DNA of 64,000 nt from an uncultured Spirochaetaceae bacterium (GTDB taxonomy: Bacteria; Spirochaetota; Spirochaetia; Sphaerochaetales; Sphaerochaetaceae), in NCBI GenBank assembly GCA_944389275.1, contig CALXLT010000042.1, forward strand, positions 62,001 to 126,000. Reading direction: 5' to 3'. Of this stretch, positions 23,358 through 47,548 are shown in pieces. How positions within the stretch are numbered: the stretch's first letter is position 1; every line of letters begins with the position of its first letter. A model generated the notes under the pieces. The model had not been told where the DNA came from and searched no databases. It was given only the letters and a program-made list of their open reading frames with translations. The translations under genes and the position numbers were made by a program.

Positions 23358-26063
23358 ATGGCAGAGAAAAAGAAGTACGTTTATTTCTTCGGCGATGGAA
23401 AGGCTGAAGGATCTGCAGACATGAAGGGTCTTCTTGGAGGAAAGGGCGCTAACCTTGCCGACATGACCTCCATTGGCCTTCCGGTACCTCCCGGATTCAC
23501 GATCACGACAGAGGCATGCGCCTTCTGGGACGAGCACAAGGCTTATCCAGAGGGAATGAGGGAGGAGGTCCTTTCTAACCTCCACAAGCTCGAGAAGATG
23601 ATGGGCGCGAAGCTCGGCGACAAGGAGAATCCTCTTCTTGTATCGGTCCGCTCCGGCGCTGCCCAGTCCATGCCAGGCATGATGGACACAGTCCTCAACC
23701 TCGGCCTCAACCCGGACTCTCTCGAGGCTCTTATAAAGAAGACGAAGAACGAGCGCTTCGCGTGGGACAGTTACCGCCGCTTCATCCAGATGTTCGGCGA
23801 TGTCGTCATGGGAGTGCCTCACTCACAGTTCGAATATGCCCTCCAGTCCGTAAAGGATGAGAATGGCAAGCACTTCGACACGGAGCTTGATGTCGACAAC
23901 CTCAAGGAAGTCATCAAGCGCTACAAGATCATCTACAAGAAGGCCACGGGCGAGGACTTCCCGACAGATCCTGAGTACCAGCTCTTCAAGACGATCGACG
24001 CGGTCTTCAGGTCATGGAACAACGACAGGGCCATCAAGTACAGGCTCATGAATGATATCCGCGGCCTTCTCGGCACCGCTGTAAACGTCCAGTCGATGGT
24101 ATTCGGCAACATGGGCGACACATCCGGAACGGGAGTGGCGTTCACCCGTGACCCGTCCACAGGCGAGAACAAGTTCTATGGCGAGTACCTGATGAACGCG
24201 CAGGGCGAGGACGTCGTAGCAGGCATCAGGACACCTCAGAAGCTCGACACGCTCCTTAGCGTCAATCCTGACGTGTTCGACCAGCTCTGCAACATCCGCT
24301 CGATTCTCGAGAAGCATTACCATGACATGCAGGATATCGAGTTCACGATCCAGGAAGGCAAGCTCTTCATGCTTCAGACAAGAAGCGGCAAGAGGACGAT
24401 CTTCGCATGGCTCAGGAGCCAGGTCGAGATGGTCGAGGAAGGCCTTATCGACAAGAAGACAGCTGTCTCCCGCGTTCCTGCGTCCGAGTTCAACAAGCTT
24501 TTCGCTCCTATCCTTGACAACAACTACATCAAGGAGCTTTCGCTCAAGGAGACCACGCACGGCCTCAACGCCTCCCCAGGAGGAGCATGCGGCCAGATCT
24601 ACTTCACGGCCAAGGAGGCTGAGGAAGCTGCAGCGATGGGCAAGGATGTCCTTCTTGTCAGGACTGAGACCAGCCCTGAGGATATCGGGGGAATGGCTGT
24701 CTCCAAGGGTATCGTCACATGCCGCGGAGGCATGACAAGCCACGCAGCGGTCGTAGCCCGCGGAATGGGATGCCCATGCGTATCCGGATGCGGAGAGATC
24801 CACATCGACGAGATCAAGAAGACACTTGAGGTCGATGGCAAGATCCTCGTTGAGGGCGACTACATGTCCATCGATGGATTCACGGGAGCTGTGTACGCGC
24901 AGAAGATCCCTGTAAAGCCATCCGAGATCATGCAGGTCCTCGAGGGCTCCATGGATGAGAAGGATTCCATCCTCTACCAGAACTACAAGAAGTTCATGGA
25001 TTACGTGAATGAGATCAAGACGATGGCTGTCCGCACCAACGCAGACACCCCTCAGGACGCTCATCACGCTGTCCAGCTCGGCGCCGAGGGCGTAGGACTT
25101 TGCCGCACTGAGCACATGTTCTTCGGCGGCAAGAGGATAATCTCGATGCGCAAGATGATCCTTGCCGACACATATGGCGAGAGGCAGATCGCGCTTTCCG
25201 AGCTCCTGCCAATGCAGAGAGAGGACTTAATCGGCATCTTCCGCGAGCTCAAGGGGCTCCCGGTCACGATCCGCCTGCTTGATCCTCCTCTCCATGAGTT
25301 CCTCCCGAACGACCACACATCGCGCCATGAGATGGCTCTCCAGCTCGGCACGACTGTCGAGACGATCTCCAAGAAGATCAATGCTCTCCAGGAGTTCAAC
25401 CCGATGCTTGGCTTCCGCGGATGCCGCCTTGCGATCGTCTATCCAGAGATCCTCGAGATGCAGGTAAGGGCGATCATCGAGGCCGCTATCACGGTCAAGA
25501 GGCAGGGTGTGGACGTTCATCCGGAGATCATGATCCCGCTCGTGGGCATCTGGAAGGAGTTCGACTTCTGCAAGAAGCACGCTGAGGCTGTCATCGAGAA
25601 GGTATTCGAGGAGCAGGGACTCAAGGTCGAGTACAAGATCGGTACGATGGTCGAGGTTCCTCGCGCCGCTATCACCGCAGATGAGATCGCGAAGGAAGCT
25701 GAGTTCTTCTCGTTCGGCACGAACGACCTGACACAGATGACCTGCGGATTCTCACGCGATGACGCCTCGTCATTCCTCTCGCACTACGTCAACGATCCTG
25801 ACAAGCAGTTCTATCCGTACGATCCGTTCGCGACGATTGATTTCGACGGTGTCGGCAAGATGATCAAGCTTGCTGTCAAGCTCGGCCGCGAGACAAGGCC
25901 TGGCATGAAGATGGGTATCTGCGGCGAGCACGGCGGAGATCCGAAGTCAATCGCCTTCTGCCAGTCAGTCGGACTTGACTATGTGTCATGCTCACCATTC
26001 AGAGTGCCTATCGCACGCCTTGCCGCTGCACAGGCCGCGATTGAGGCAGAGAAGAAGAACTGA
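23358..26063 (+). CDS. ppdK: Pyruvate, phosphate dikinase
   Basis: A full-length 901-residue PPDK, which interconverts pyruvate + ATP + Pi and phosphoenolpyruvate + AMP + PPi; in anaerobes it often works in glycolysis. The ATP-grasp domain starts GGKGANLADMTSIGLPVPPGFTI; the phosphohistidine is in GGMTSHAAVVARGMG (His near residue 459); the C-terminal TIM-barrel has LCRTEHMFF, GFRGCRLA and GFSRDDASSFLSHY. Codons are strongly biased to a C- or G-ending set, as for a highly expressed gene. It is monocistronic with its own terminator. Confidence 0.98.
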   Translation: MAEKKKYVYFFGDGKAEGSADMKGLLGGKGANLADMTSIGLPVPPGFTITTEACAFWDEHKAYPEGMREEVLSNLHKLEKMMGAKLGDKENPLLVSVRSGAAQSMPGMMDTVLNLGLNPDSLEALIKKTKNERFAWDSYRRFIQMFGDVVMGVPHSQFEYALQSVKDENGKHFDTELDVDNLKEVIKRYKIIYKKATGEDFPTDPEYQLFKTIDAVFRSWNNDRAIKYRLMNDIRGLLGTAVNVQSMVFGNMGDTSGTGVAFTRDPSTGENKFYGEYLMNAQGEDVVAGIRTPQKLDTLLSVNPDVFDQLCNIRSILEKHYHDMQDIEFTIQEGKLFMLQTRSGKRTIFAWLRSQVEMVEEGLIDKKTAVSRVPASEFNKLFAPILDNNYIKELSLKETTHGLNASPGGACGQIYFTAKEAEEAAAMGKDVLLVRTETSPEDIGGMAVSKGIVTCRGGMTSHAAVVARGMGCPCVSGCGEIHIDEIKKTLEVDGKILVEGDYMSIDGFTGAVYAQKIPVKPSEIMQVLEGSMDEKDSILYQNYKKFMDYVNEIKTMAVRTNADTPQDAHHAVQLGAEGVGLCRTEHMFFGGKRIISMRKMILADTYGERQIALSELLPMQREDLIGIFRELKGLPVTIRLLDPPLHEFLPNDHTSRHEMALQLGTTVETISKKINALQEFNPMLGFRGCRLAIVYPEILEMQVRAIIEAAITVKRQGVDVHPEIMIPLVGIWKEFDFCKKHAEAVIEKVFEEQGLKVEYKIGTMVEVPRAAITADEIAKEAEFFSFGTNDLTQMTCGFSRDDASSFLSHYVNDPDKQFYPYDPFATIDFDGVGKMIKLAVKLGRETRPGMKMGICGEHGGDPKSIAFCQSVGLDYVSCSPFRVPIARLAAAQAAIEAEKKN

Positions 26064-26082
26064 GCATAATAGCGCAGTGTAT

Positions 26083-26116
26083 ATGGAGAGGGTAGCGATA
26101 TCCTCTCCATTTTTTT
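26083..26116 (+). terminator. Intrinsic terminator of ppdK
   Basis: A 9-base stem ATGGAGAGG / CCTCTCCAT with a 10-base loop is followed directly by a run of T. Confidence 0.9.
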
Positions 26117-26144
26117 AATATCGAAAACAGCAATGAAAGCTTAT

Positions 26145-26235
26145 AAAAATAGGAGACCCCCGGTCTCCCTGTTTTTGATTAGCCCCCAGAACGCATCCGG
26201 GGGGGACGGACTGATAGCCCGAGCTACCCACCGCA
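26145..26235 (-). ncRNA. Candidate small RNA, tandem unit 1
   Basis: A 91-base unit repeated without indels 127 bases away. Read on the minus strand it has its own promoter (TTGACT at 26265-26270, TAGGAT at 26241-26246, spacer 18), a predicted 5' end near 26234, a TAGC/GCTA hairpin, a C-rich/G-rich stem-loop (26183-26203) and a 3' terminator GGAGACC/GGTCTCC followed by TATTTTT. No open reading frame fits. Between the two units the central stem has a compensatory C-G to T-A change, which supports a structured RNA. No known RNA family was recognised. The terminator hairpin also has a T run on the plus strand, so the strand call is an inference. Confidence 0.65.
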
Positions 26236-26264
26236 CTTAAATCCTACATATAAAACATGCTGCA

Positions 26265-26270
26265 AGTCAA
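26265..26270 (-). promoter_or_regulatory. -35 box of small-RNA unit 1
   Basis: TTGACT on the minus strand directly follows the T tail of unit 2. Its -10 is TAGGAT at 26241-26246 (spacer 18). Confidence 0.5.
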
Positions 26271-26271
26271 C

Positions 26272-26362
26272 AAAAATAGGAGACCCCCGGTCTCCCTGTT
26301 TTTGATTAGCTCCTAGAGCGCATCTAGGGGGGACGGACTGATAGCCCAAGCTACCCACCGCA
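26272..26362 (-). ncRNA. Candidate small RNA, tandem unit 2
   Basis: The second 91-base unit differs from the first at six positions, five within the central stem-loop and one in a hairpin loop. The terminal hairpin is identical. Minus-strand signals are TTGACG (26391-26396), GATTAT (26366-26371, spacer 19) and a predicted 5' end near 26360. The stem CTCCTAGA/TCTAGGGG (plus-strand view) keeps pairing despite the changes. Each unit therefore has its own promoter and terminator, as in other multicopy small RNAs. The next gene on the plus strand starts 85 bases away and points the other way. Confidence 0.65.
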
Positions 26363-26390
26363 GCTATAATCTGGCAGATAACAAGTCTTT

Positions 26391-26396
26391 CGTCAA
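26391..26396 (-). promoter_or_regulatory. -35 box of small-RNA unit 2
   Basis: TTGACG on the minus strand, paired with GATTAT at 26366-26371. Distance to the start of the RNA unit is within one base of that in unit 1. Confidence 0.5.
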
Positions 26397-26446
26397 CATG
26401 AATATGCCAATTGGATTATTTCACGGTTTTCTGCGTATTAGTTTAT

Positions 26447-27457
26447 ATGAAGGTTTATCAAGAGGTCCAGGGATTGCGGAAGAAATACGCTAGAATGATC
26501 CCTAACGCGGAAATCTGGAATGGCAATGATGTAATTGATTTCTTCGATTGCTATAAGCCATTGCTTACGGAGATGTTCCTTGAATACCCAGGATTCTATT
26601 TCAAGGGAATTAGATTATTCCCTGGGTTAGATGAGGAACAGCTGCCATTCGAGAAGGAACTTATCCAAGCTAAGCTATATAACCTGCTGTTCTCTTCTGA
26701 TATCGTGCTTCTTCCGCGTTATATTGACAGGATCCTTCTGAATATCCTTGGCGTTGATCTAAGGAAGGGTTCCTTAGGAGATGGACTTGCAGCTTACGAT
26801 AATAAAGGAAAGTATGTGGAGTTCAAGCTATGCAATGACAAGAAGCTTCCACAGCGTATCTCAAAAGCGGCAGGCAATGCGGATGAATTCTTCATATGCG
26901 TAGAGGATCTGAAGGATGAGACAATCAGAAAGCTTGGGACAGGAAGACTCAAGATGAATATCCCTAAAGGAACAGAAGGGAGCATCTTTGCCCTTAACTC
27001 GCATATCCTTTATTCAATCAGATCTGATGAGCATATACAGATTCAAAGACGCAAGGAATCCCTTGATGAGACCTCATCGAATGTATTGATTCAAATGTAT
27101 TCAGCTGAGCTGATGACAATCAACAGGGATGCCTCTATATCCTTTGCAGAATATCTGGATGAAGAATCAAAATCGTGGAATGAGTATACATTCCTACTGT
27201 ATGGTGGAGATATATCAATTCCTAGATGCCTAGATGAATACAGAAGGATACGAGGTATTCTTGCAAGAAGGAATATCAGGGCAGTGATCCCAAAATCATC
27301 GCTTATATCATTGTTTGATTTTCCTTTCACAGGGGTGATTGAGTTCATCTCTGAGACCAGAACTGTATTTTGCATGGATGTATCGGCAAGGACCTTCGCT
27401 GATATCAGAGGCTTGCAATACTTGAAGATAAGCAACACAGAACTATTTCTTACATAA
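26447..27457 (+). CDS. Hypothetical protein with possible PD-(D/E)XK nuclease motif
   Basis: A 336-residue protein of unknown family. The segment around residues 110-127, GDGLAAYDNKGKYVEFKL, looks like the D...ExK core of the PD-(D/E)XK nuclease fold (Asp near 117, Glu125, Lys127), preceded by a helix-rich region. The ATG at 26447 is preferred over a TTG at 26411. No signal peptide. Composition is AT-rich compared with ppdK, suggesting transfer. Next to it upstream are the tandem small RNAs, transcribed away from it. A defence, restriction or toxin role is possible but unproven. Confidence 0.6.
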   Translation: MKVYQEVQGLRKKYARMIPNAEIWNGNDVIDFFDCYKPLLTEMFLEYPGFYFKGIRLFPGLDEEQLPFEKELIQAKLYNLLFSSDIVLLPRYIDRILLNILGVDLRKGSLGDGLAAYDNKGKYVEFKLCNDKKLPQRISKAAGNADEFFICVEDLKDETIRKLGTGRLKMNIPKGTEGSIFALNSHILYSIRSDEHIQIQRRKESLDETSSNVLIQMYSAELMTINRDASISFAEYLDEESKSWNEYTFLLYGGDISIPRCLDEYRRIRGILARRNIRAVIPKSSLISLFDFPFTGVIEFISETRTVFCMDVSARTFADIRGLQYLKISNTELFLT

Positions 27458-27483
27458 TTTTGAATTGTGTATTTTATAAGGAT

Positions 27484-27524
27484 TTATCGAACAAAAACAC
27501 CTTATTTTGTTCGATAACTTGACA
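27484..27524 (+). promoter_or_regulatory. Long palindrome overlapping promoter of FN3 lipoprotein operon 1
   Basis: A 13-base perfect inverted repeat TTATCGAACAAAA / TTTTGTTCGATAA with an 8-base centre (27484-27517) ends one base before a perfect -35 TTGACA (27519-27524). The -10 is GATAAT (27544-27549, spacer 19), and the start codon follows 7 bases later. A very similar palindrome precedes the second lipoprotein operon at 30593. It looks like an operator for a dimeric regulator. Confidence 0.6.
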
Positions 27525-27556
27525 TCGACCCCATATTGAGAGCGATAATAGGGTAC

Positions 27557-30558: not shown

Positions 30559-30592
30559 CAAATCGTAAGATAAAAATCATTATAGGCAGGAT

Positions 30593-30651
30593 TTATCGAA
30601 CAAAATCAGTTATTTTTGTTCGTTATCTTGCCTTTTTCTGTACCTTATGAT
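30593..30651 (+). promoter_or_regulatory. Second copy of the palindrome, upstream of FN3 lipoprotein operon 2
   Basis: TTATCGAACAAAA-N8-TTTTGTTCGTTA (30593-30625) differs from the copy at 27484 by a few bases and has the same centre length. Both are preceded by GGAT and followed by CTTG(A/C)C. A -10 candidate TATGAT is at 30646-30651, with a weak -35 inside the right arm. Confidence 0.55.
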
Positions 30652-45688: not shown

Positions 45689-46140
45689 CTGTTGATCTCC
45701 CTGAGCTGGCGGCGCGCGTCGCGCTGGGCGTCACGCTCCTTTATCGCTTCCTTCTTGTCCCTCACGTTCTTTCCGCGCGCAAGGGCTATCCTCATCTTGA
45801 CGAGGTTGCCCTTGAGGTAGATCTCGAGAGGCACGATCGTGAGGCCGCGCTCATTGACCTTCCTCGTGAACTTCTTTATCTCCTGCTTGTGGGCCAGGAG
45901 GCGGCGCTTGCGGTCCGGCACGTGGTTGAATATATTGCCATGGCTATAAGGCTGGATCAAGAAGCCGATGAGTATGAGCTCACCGTTCTTGGGGATTATA
46001 TAGCTATCCGAGAACGAGCACTTGCCCTCGCGGATGGACTTCACCTCCGTCCCCTCGAGCTCCATGCCGACCTCAAGCTCCTCTATCATCTCATAGTTGA
46101 AATACGCTTTCTTATTCCGCTGTATCGACTTGGTTTCCAT
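45682..46140 (-). CDS. smpB: SsrA-binding protein SmpB
   Basis: A 152-residue SmpB: RNKKAYFNYEMIEELEVGMELEGTEVKSIREGK is the OB-fold signature, followed by HGNIFNHVPDRKRRLLAHKQEIKKF and a basic C-terminal tail (RDKKEAIKERDAQRDARRQLRE) that enters the mRNA channel. Essential partner of tmRNA. It overlaps the upstream SUMF1-like gene by 29 bases on the same strand. Confidence 0.97.
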   Translation of the reverse strand: METKSIQRNKKAYFNYEMIEELEVGMELEGTEVKSIREGKCSFSDSYIIPKNGELILIGFLIQPYSHGNIFNHVPDRKRRLLAHKQEIKKFTRKVNERGLTIVPLEIYLKGNLVKMRIALARGKNVRDKKEAIKERDAQRDARRQLREINSY

Positions 46141-47548
46141 CTCTTATTCCTATGCGGAGCGTCATGTACTCGCTTGTCATGCTGCGCCCGGCGACGCCGA
46201 CCGTGTCCACGGTCACATCGCTCGGGTCATTGATATAGCTGCCGCCCTTTATGATGATATCATCAAAGGGGTAGAGAGCGCCGAGACGCATGGCCTCATC
46301 ATATCCATAAAGCCTCATGAGAGGGATGTACGGCGTTGATGTCATCTCCCAGAGCTGGCCCATCATGAACGAAGGCGTGGACGGGTCGTTATCGACAGGG
46401 ATCAGCGTCGTAGCGTAATGCTTTCCCTCAGCGCTCAGCGCAGCGGCTGTCCACTCAGCCTCGGTAGGGATCATGTAGCTCACGCCATCACGCTCCGAAA
46501 GCCATTCTACATACGCCTCTGCCGCATGGTAGCTTATGTTCCTTATCGGAAGGGTAGAGCGCACGCGCGTGGTGAGCGTTATGCCGTCAAGATACCCATC
46601 ATCGACCATGCCATCCGCGATAAGCTCCTCTTTGTTCTCAGCGCTCCAATATGGGTTTGCCTCGGTAAAGAGCGCGTACTCATACTCCGATACAGGACGC
46701 TCCGCGATGCTGAACGCACCGAGATCGGTGTCTACAAGCCTCTCGTTCGCCTCCGGAAAGCTCCCTGCCTCGCTGCATCCGAGCGTGAGTGCCATCGCGG
46801 GATAGGAGAAGAACGAACCATTCCTCACAGGCTTCCCGACAGTCCTGGCAAGGAAAGAGGGAAGAGGCTCAGGCCTTTTTTCTGCTATCGCCTCAAGGGT
46901 TGGGGTTGAATAGCGCACGGATGATGAGGAGAGGATATCCAGGGCATTCTGGAAATCCTCTTCCATGGCGCTTGATGTGATATGCATCGCTCCGTAGAGC
47001 ATCTCGCTCGATATATCCTCAAAGCCGAGGGCAACCGCGTTCCTTGCAAACGACGAGAAGAGAGGAGGGAAGTGGTAGCGGTCATCGTAGTCTATGACGC
47101 GGGACCATGACGCGACCTCCAAAAGGAACTCAGCCCTAACGGCTTTTTCGATCTCTTCCGTGTTCTCCGTATCATGACTTACCTCTGTGACCTTGTGCGA
47201 GAAGAGCGTGAAGAGGATGCGGTGTGGTATATCAACGGTCACCGAGCCTGCGTCAGCCCCATAGATCGAGAAATGAAACGTGCTCGTTCCATGGGGAAGA
47301 TAATAGACAGAGCCCTCTGATGAGCCTATGTAGCTTCCATCCTCAGCCCAGATCGCGGTATCGGAAGTGTTCGTGATGAACCTGACATAGCCTCCCTTCT
47401 GCACGATGCCCGGAAGGAGGAACAGAAGGAACGCGAGGATGAGCGCGAAGGCTATGATGGCCGCGAATATCACCGCACCTGGCCTGATGCCGAAGATAGG
47501 GCTCAGACGCACCGGCTCTACATCTGGAAGCTGAGGCTTTTTTCTCAT
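46112..47548 (-). CDS. Membrane protein with SUMF1/FGE-like domain
   Basis: A 478-residue protein with an N-terminal membrane helix (about 27-50), a beta-rich extracytoplasmic part with a PEGA-like look (GGYVRFITNTSDTAIWAEDGSYIG, about 52-115) and a C-terminal SUMF1/formylglycine-generating-enzyme-type domain (about 280-470): RPVSEYEYALF, RNISYHAAEAYVEWLS, YMIPTEAEWTAAAL, GQLWEMTSTPY, IKGGSY and TLRIGIR. The active-site cysteines of true FGE are not evident, so a binding role is more likely. Its end overlaps smpB. Confidence 0.78.
   Translation of the reverse strand: MRKKPQLPDVEPVRLSPIFGIRPGAVIFAAIIAFALILAFLLFLLPGIVQKGGYVRFITNTSDTAIWAEDGSYIGSSEGSVYYLPHGTSTFHFSIYGADAGSVTVDIPHRILFTLFSHKVTEVSHDTENTEEIEKAVRAEFLLEVASWSRVIDYDDRYHFPPLFSSFARNAVALGFEDISSEMLYGAMHITSSAMEEDFQNALDILSSSSVRYSTPTLEAIAEKRPEPLPSFLARTVGKPVRNGSFFSYPAMALTLGCSEAGSFPEANERLVDTDLGAFSIAERPVSEYEYALFTEANPYWSAENKEELIADGMVDDGYLDGITLTTRVRSTLPIRNISYHAAEAYVEWLSERDGVSYMIPTEAEWTAAALSAEGKHYATTLIPVDNDPSTPSFMMGQLWEMTSTPYIPLMRLYGYDEAMRLGALYPFDDIIIKGGSYINDPSDVTVDTVGVAGRSMTSEYMTLRIGIRDGNQVDTAE

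Follow-up and report, generated by a model that had tools for sequence, protein, structure and literature searches.

Several described systems resemble in part the locus considered here. The sibling small RNAs (sRNAs) OmrA and OmrB are encoded by two similar tandem genes of 80-90 bases, with similar ends and their own terminators, that arose by gene duplication (PMC4211561). Among type I toxin-antitoxin pairs, SymE/SymR and RalR/RalA comprise a gene for a nuclease-type toxin and an RNA encoded on the opposite strand; the complementarity of RalA falls inside the coding region, and RalA needs Hfq (PMC4147584). In tisB/istR1, zor/orz and dinQ/agrB the RNA gene is divergent from the protein gene and the RNA pairs with the toxin mRNA in its long 5' leader (PMC4147584). 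In AbiF/RCd22 and the type III system ToxIN, a repeated structured RNA lies beside a toxic protein gene and is active in cis and in trans (PMC12373285, PMC8860590). The present locus, a tandem pair of repeat units on the minus strand, lies in a stretch of 64,000 nucleotides of contig CALXLT010000042.1 from an uncultured Spirochaetaceae bacterium (hereafter the window). It shares with these systems two similar, structured, tandem RNA units and a divergent protein gene, here named X, whose predicted fold is toxin-like. We report that these units and their relatives almost certainly represent real sRNA genes of a new, previously unrecorded family, and that some of its members lie antisense within genes homologous to X, which is the main point beyond the first-pass annotation of this DNA.

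A family of small RNA genes with covarying stems

Realignment of the two units of the window (26145-26235 and 26272-26362) yielded 93.4% identity over 91 bases, free of gaps, with six differences and a period of 127, as the first-pass annotation had described. Its placing of five of the six differences in one stem-loop was likewise borne out: this is the second stem-loop, P2, which carries one two-sided C-G/U-A change (the compensatory C-G to T-A change of the annotation) and one one-sided G-U/A-U change, the sixth difference falling in the P1 loop, P1 being the first hairpin. The minus-strand TTGAC(T/G), -10-like box and GGAGACC/GGTCTCC terminator claimed for each unit are present, with spacers of 17 and 18 bases. 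The -35 of unit 1 had been placed directly after the tail of unit 2; the two are adjacent as stated, with one base separating the unit 2 T-run from the -35. A scan detected GGAGACC/GGTCTCC hairpins with T-runs as terminators on both strands (6 in the region versus 0.7 expected). The pair is unconvincing when considered alone, because folding of the two copies gave a modest gain over shuffled sequences (z ~-1.8) and because the -10-like hexamers CAGATT and TAGGAT are mediocre on their own (unit 1 scores 9/12). The decisive evidence beyond chance is provided by the homologues.

The window is part of the draft genome of a gut spirochaete of the genus Candidatus Ornithospirochaeta, and the covariance search of related genomes that had been proposed as a check identified relatives in another five species of this genus (G073, G042, G074, G040 and G054). 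A DNA search retrieved two of these congeners, namely G073 (Ca. O. stercoravium), with a tandem pair of period 129 and a degenerate copy, and G042, with a single copy, and covariance models added the other three. The RNA is present in 6 of the 48 genomes of the genus, patchily and at differing places, in one to three copies per genome. In the degenerate copy of G073 (L008 4326-4419) the P1 hairpin is deleted and the -35 is fused to the 3' side of P1, and a gene for a TnpB/Cas12f-TNB-type protein (L135 1-654) is located close to the RNA gene of G074. The first covariance model, R1, included the terminator and additionally picked up sites in G036 and G059 consisting of a tRNA plus a terminator, which were dropped after reading the sequences; for this reason models R2 and R3 were built without the terminator.

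In a structural alignment of the eight complete members, which was fitted to the model so that some bias toward structure is expected, two-sided changes occur in 11 of the 16 pairs and 93.8% of the cells pair. The covariation score of 0.585 was reached by none of 500 shuffles, and sliding the structure by 1-3 columns gave at most 0.15; a MAFFT alignment of six members presented the same picture. Among the eight members, identity amounts to 95% in the -35 and 63% in the -10, as compared to 29% (chance level) in the 18-base spacer, and this conservation of the hexamers around an unconserved spacer argues that the units are independent genes consisting of promoter, stem-loops and terminator. The best-conserved unpaired bases are those of the P1 inner loop, while the P1 inner stem, P2 and the terminator vary in sequence between members yet retain their pairing. 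A family gene is thus predicted to consist of a -35/-10 promoter, two hairpins, of which the first (P1) is bulged and the second is P2, and an intrinsic terminator preceded by an A-rich linker. The earlier claim of structured sRNA genes in tandem, with a promoter and a terminator for each, is supported by the conserved -35/-10 elements, the covarying stems and the compensated terminators of the homologues. Promoter, structure, terminator and place emerge from comparison, and from these we infer transcription of the units. The copies of the window (90% identical) and those of G073 (71%) each group with their own partner, and the two tandem duplications therefore look independent or homogenised.

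No known family had been recognised in the first reading, and a search of 4227 Rfam models agreed: none matched at the gathering threshold, the best reaching 13-28 bits, all far below it, and relaxed thresholds returned chance matches only. Further searches, which rely on loose first-look filters so that divergent members could be missed, revealed no member outside Candidatus Ornithospirochaeta among 297 Spirochaetia genomes, none additional by motif pattern across 138 family genomes, and neither a family member nor a relative of X in viral contigs; a pattern scan of 84,980 species gave 99 matches, and only L074 (G073) and L069 (G042) were confirmed by model R3.

Some family members lie antisense within homologues of gene X

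In G073 the tandem RNA pair is positioned antisense within a homologue of X, the frame of which is open throughout, and in G054 a single copy lies antisense within a decayed X at the same residues, the site corresponding to residues ~195-235 of X. Transposase remnants (L180 8279-9686) adjoin X in G054. The X genes of G041, G063 and G047 carry, at the same codons, an antisense TTGACG-16-TATAAT or TATATT with a strong terminator ~107 bases on. When both strands of 168 kb were scanned for a promoter plus a terminator 90-135 bases apart, ten units were returned, of which four belong to the RNA family, three represent the homologous X spot of G041, G063 and G047, and three are background. Since X codons themselves favour the promoter, synonymous shuffles of X were drawn, and the full promoter-plus-terminator unit arose in 4.7% (G041), 1.9% (G063) and 0.6% (G047) of these; as G041 and G063 are related, the three results are not three independent tests. 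Additionally, conservation of synonymous codons between G041 and G063 is higher beneath the unit (19 of 24) than elsewhere in X (43 of 99; p 0.0015). In G006, which belongs to another genus, an antisense terminator is found at the same X residues with TTGACA upstream and a poor -10.

From the end of the nuclease-like domain to the V-N/V-K codons, X spans 37-39 residues in G041, G063 and G047, 40 in G054 and 33 in the window; in G073 this segment measures 41 residues per unit and is longer by exactly one 43-codon unit. The length of the segment is not raised by the presence of one RNA unit, and the RNA therefore overlies native X codons; insertion of the RNA into X was rejected on the same grounds. 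X or a remnant of it occurs in 4 of the 6 RNA-bearing genomes versus 8 of 48 across the genus (p 0.0046, a value which ignores phylogeny and the incompleteness of metagenome-assembled genomes, MAGs). Based on position, promoter and terminator, the RNA family quite probably arose nested in X.

Gene X and its relatives

X yielded no sequence match in Pfam, NCBIfam or PDB, and no match to known type III or Abi_2 families was obtained via these three resources, PADLOC not having been run. AlphaFold modelled residues 1-202 with a pLDDT of 90, and the best Foldseek match was a phage 'CDI toxin-like protein' (E 9e-5, probability 1.0, TM 0.43 by query), a MuF-type minor capsid protein also being retrieved (E 2.6e-4). 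Comparison to PDB structures produced nothing significant, and PD-(D/E)XK folds recur among the weak matches. Across seven X homologues D112 and K127 are invariant and E/D is conserved at position 125, a combination that may correspond to the D...(D/E)xK active-site pattern of PD-(D/E)XK nucleases. X therefore probably contains a toxin-type nuclease domain, as judged from the model.

In other species this domain forms part of larger proteins, of 3639 amino acids (aa) in G041, 2566 aa in G063 and 535 aa in G047. The two giant proteins (L166 3980-14899, minus strand, and L168) are of polyvalent type, and the first also carries ART-PolyVal and LPD3 domains. X thus resembles the CDI toxin-like/MuF-fusion domains of phage polyvalent proteins in predicted fold and in context, and differs from them in having no sequence-family match; no X was found in phage and plasmid records. 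We know of no antisense RNA in genes for CDI toxin-like/MuF-fusion polyvalent proteins, although the literature was not exhaustively searched.

Proposed origin and role of the RNA pair

In the preferred reading, the family would have started out as an antisense RNA gene lying within the X coding sequence. The N-terminal domain of X resembles CDI-type toxin domains on phage MuF/polyvalent proteins. The nested gene would have been retained inside X in most species and duplicated in place in G073, while in the lineage of the window a copy would have been freed from X and duplicated, and would now stand divergent to it. The RNA may act as an antitoxin holding X down, by antisense pairing where it is nested and, in the window, perhaps through limited pairing or by binding X or its mRNA. 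Antitoxin-like control of X is the likeliest of the roles considered, though less probable than not, and is put forward with reserve on the basis of sequence comparison. The combination of nested origin, freed duplicated pair and control of X is our tentative proposal. The broader notion, that RNA antitoxins were born antisense in a CDI-type polyvalent toxin domain, escaped as free trans-acting duplicates and possibly confer immunity to toxin-domain copies entering the cell, is doubtful.

A number of observations weigh against this proposal. No X could be detected in two of the RNA-bearing genomes, G040 and G042, and in a third, G074, the gene survives only as a remnant at another place. No codon-constraint signal is seen when G041 is compared with G047 (p 0.30), and the nested RNAs of G041, G063 and G047 score only 12-16 bits in the covariance models, which is not significant; as their P1 is without the inner loop, their kinship rests on position, promoter and three-hairpin architecture. 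The catalytic fold of X is suggested by modelling, and its putative toxicity rests on fold resemblance. Furthermore, the window RNAs are no more complementary to the X mRNA than to shuffled targets, and the start region of X is not their favoured pairing partner; the 5' region of the X mRNA alone scored lower than 97 of 100 shuffles, this being one of eight tests. In view of this lack of special complementarity, the freed copy may bind protein, be directed at incoming X genes, or have acquired new targets.

The RNA-X system may thus work like type I pairs with nuclease toxins, its membership being one of resemblance: the RNA is antisense to X in two genomes (G073 and G054), in three others (G041, G063 and G047) it is so by position, and the window copy displays no excess complementarity. 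It differs from SymE/SymR and RalR/RalA in that the RNA gene, with its own terminator, is situated inside X at the codons named above, in that X is part of much larger phage-type proteins in some species, and in that free tandem copies exist. Unlike in tisB/istR1, zor/orz and dinQ/agrB, predicted pairing does not favour the start of the protein gene. No sequence or family kinship was found with AbiF/RCd22 or ToxIN; here the RNA is on the opposite strand, each unit has a terminator, and no pseudoknot repeats were identified.

Alternative explanations

The units may be stand-alone trans-acting sRNAs that repress several mRNAs through a C-rich single-stranded run, their function being unrelated to X. 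This is unlikely, even though, in the copies of the window and of G073, UCCGUCCCCCC lies accessible between the two hairpins P1 and P2, the copies of G040, G042 and G074 sit away from X, and tandem sibling base-pairing sRNAs such as OmrA/OmrB are common (PMC4211561). The C-run is present in the window and G073, shortened in G042 and reduced or absent in G040, G054 and G074, and the best-conserved unpaired bases are located in the P1 inner loop instead. Because the run is unconserved across the family, the suggestion in the first-pass annotation that it pairs with ribosome-binding sites is weakly supported. Moreover, Hfq was detected in none of eight genomes checked (incomplete MAGs in which controls were detected) and CsrA in none of eight, so that the usual sRNA partners are unlikely, and regulation of the Hfq type or by a CsrA sponge was rejected. 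An Hfq-dependent sRNA of the OmrA/OmrB type was likewise set aside, as neither Hfq nor a conserved unpaired seed was found; the family also differs from OmrA/OmrB in its putative origin in a coding sequence and its toxin-like neighbour. Among 50 genes of the window, the top predicted partner of the C-run is 46112-47548 on the minus strand (-22.9 kcal/mol, a raw score without a chance control).

The main functional rival is an RNA antitoxin acting through direct binding to the X protein, in the manner of type III systems or AbiF/RCd22, with the bulged P1 as the protein site. Such a role would suit the retention of the P1 inner loop amid stems that vary but pair, as well as the two RNA copies adjoining X in the window, and RCd22, which has two motifs, neutralises AbiF by protein binding (PMC12373285). 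It is nevertheless improbable, since the nested RNAs of G041, G063 and G047 are without the inner-loop motif and orphan RNAs occur without X. In ToxIN the RNA lies upstream of the toxin in a single transcript, an arrangement not seen here.

It is also improbable, to a similar degree, that the antisense promoters and terminators in X are by-products of protein conservation and that a free sRNA was inserted twice, X being a tolerant site. A promoter-like match does arise from the V-K/N and Y-I codons alone in 31-62% of the synonymous shuffles; however, promoter plus terminator is far rarer (0.6-4.7%, as above), two independent insertions at the same residues would be needed, one unit adds no length, and the terminator of G006 occupies the same place in another genus. 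Finally, a dispersed repeat or bidirectional terminator element without RNA function, as might be proposed from the patchy occurrence at different places in 6 of 48 genomes, the window terminator hairpin that reads on both strands and the degenerate copy, is very improbable given the promoter conserved around an unconserved spacer, the covarying stems and the mere one to three copies per genome.

Features of the locus and its surroundings

Table 1. Positions of the predicted RNA genes and neighbouring features within the window
Feature	Position	Strand	Remarks
Promoter, unit 2	26368..26396	-	TTGACG 26396-26391, 17-base spacer, CAGATT 26373-26368; kept in 8 members, spacer unconserved
Small RNA, unit 2 (W2)	26271..26362	-	Predicted start ~26362, T-run end ~26272; covariance model 96.8 bits (training member)
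P1, unit 2	26333..26361	-	GCGG / inner stem GGTAGC-GCTATC / CCGT; conserved inner loop TG / AGT
P2, unit 2	26312..26328	-	CCTAGA-5-TCTAGG
Intrinsic terminator stem-loop, unit 2	26278..26296	-	T-run 26277-26272
Promoter, unit 1	26241..26270	-	TTGACT 26270-26265, 18-base spacer, TAGGAT 26246-26241
Small RNA, unit 1 (W1)	26144..26236	-	Predicted start ~26236, T-run end ~26145; covariance model 95.9 bits (training member)
P1, unit 1	26206..26234	-	Hairpin
P2, unit 1	26185..26201	-	CCCGGA-5-TTCTGGG register; includes a two-sided C-G/U-A change as compared with unit 2
Intrinsic terminator stem-loop, unit 1	26151..26169	-	T-run 26150-26145; hairpin reads as terminator on + strand too
ppdK terminator	26083..26110	+	ppdK 23358-26063, convergent with RNA pair; outside family, marks boundary
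Gene X	26447..27457	+	Divergent from RNA pair; 336 aa (348 aa if started at TTG 26411); CDI toxin-like/MuF-fusion-type nuclease-like domain predicted for residues 1-202
Possible antisense promoter relic in X	27094..27123	-	TTGATT-18-TACATT, no accompanying terminator; strict scan finds no unit

A shared ppdK neighbourhood as a syntenic sRNA site was ruled out, as the 3' flank of ppdK differs among species; across the window (26063-26450) and L137-L165 this flank is variable, with different gene content in each related species. Just upstream of lipoprotein-like genes at 27536 and 30709, the window contains an imperfect palindrome, TTATCGAACAAAA-N-TTTTGTTCGATAA (27479-27521 and 30588-30630), which looks like an operator; similar palindromes lie near ppdK in other species (L139 413-485 and L151 1379-1426).

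Implications

Regulatory RNAs of spirochaetes are little known, and with the family described here one can trace how free tandem sRNA genes may have emerged from an RNA nested antisense in a toxin-like gene, a transition that is usually just inferred. If both the nested origin and the control of X are true, the system would constitute a new variant of RNA-controlled toxin. The family also makes it testable whether polyvalent phage toxins may be restrained by RNAs written in their own reading frames.
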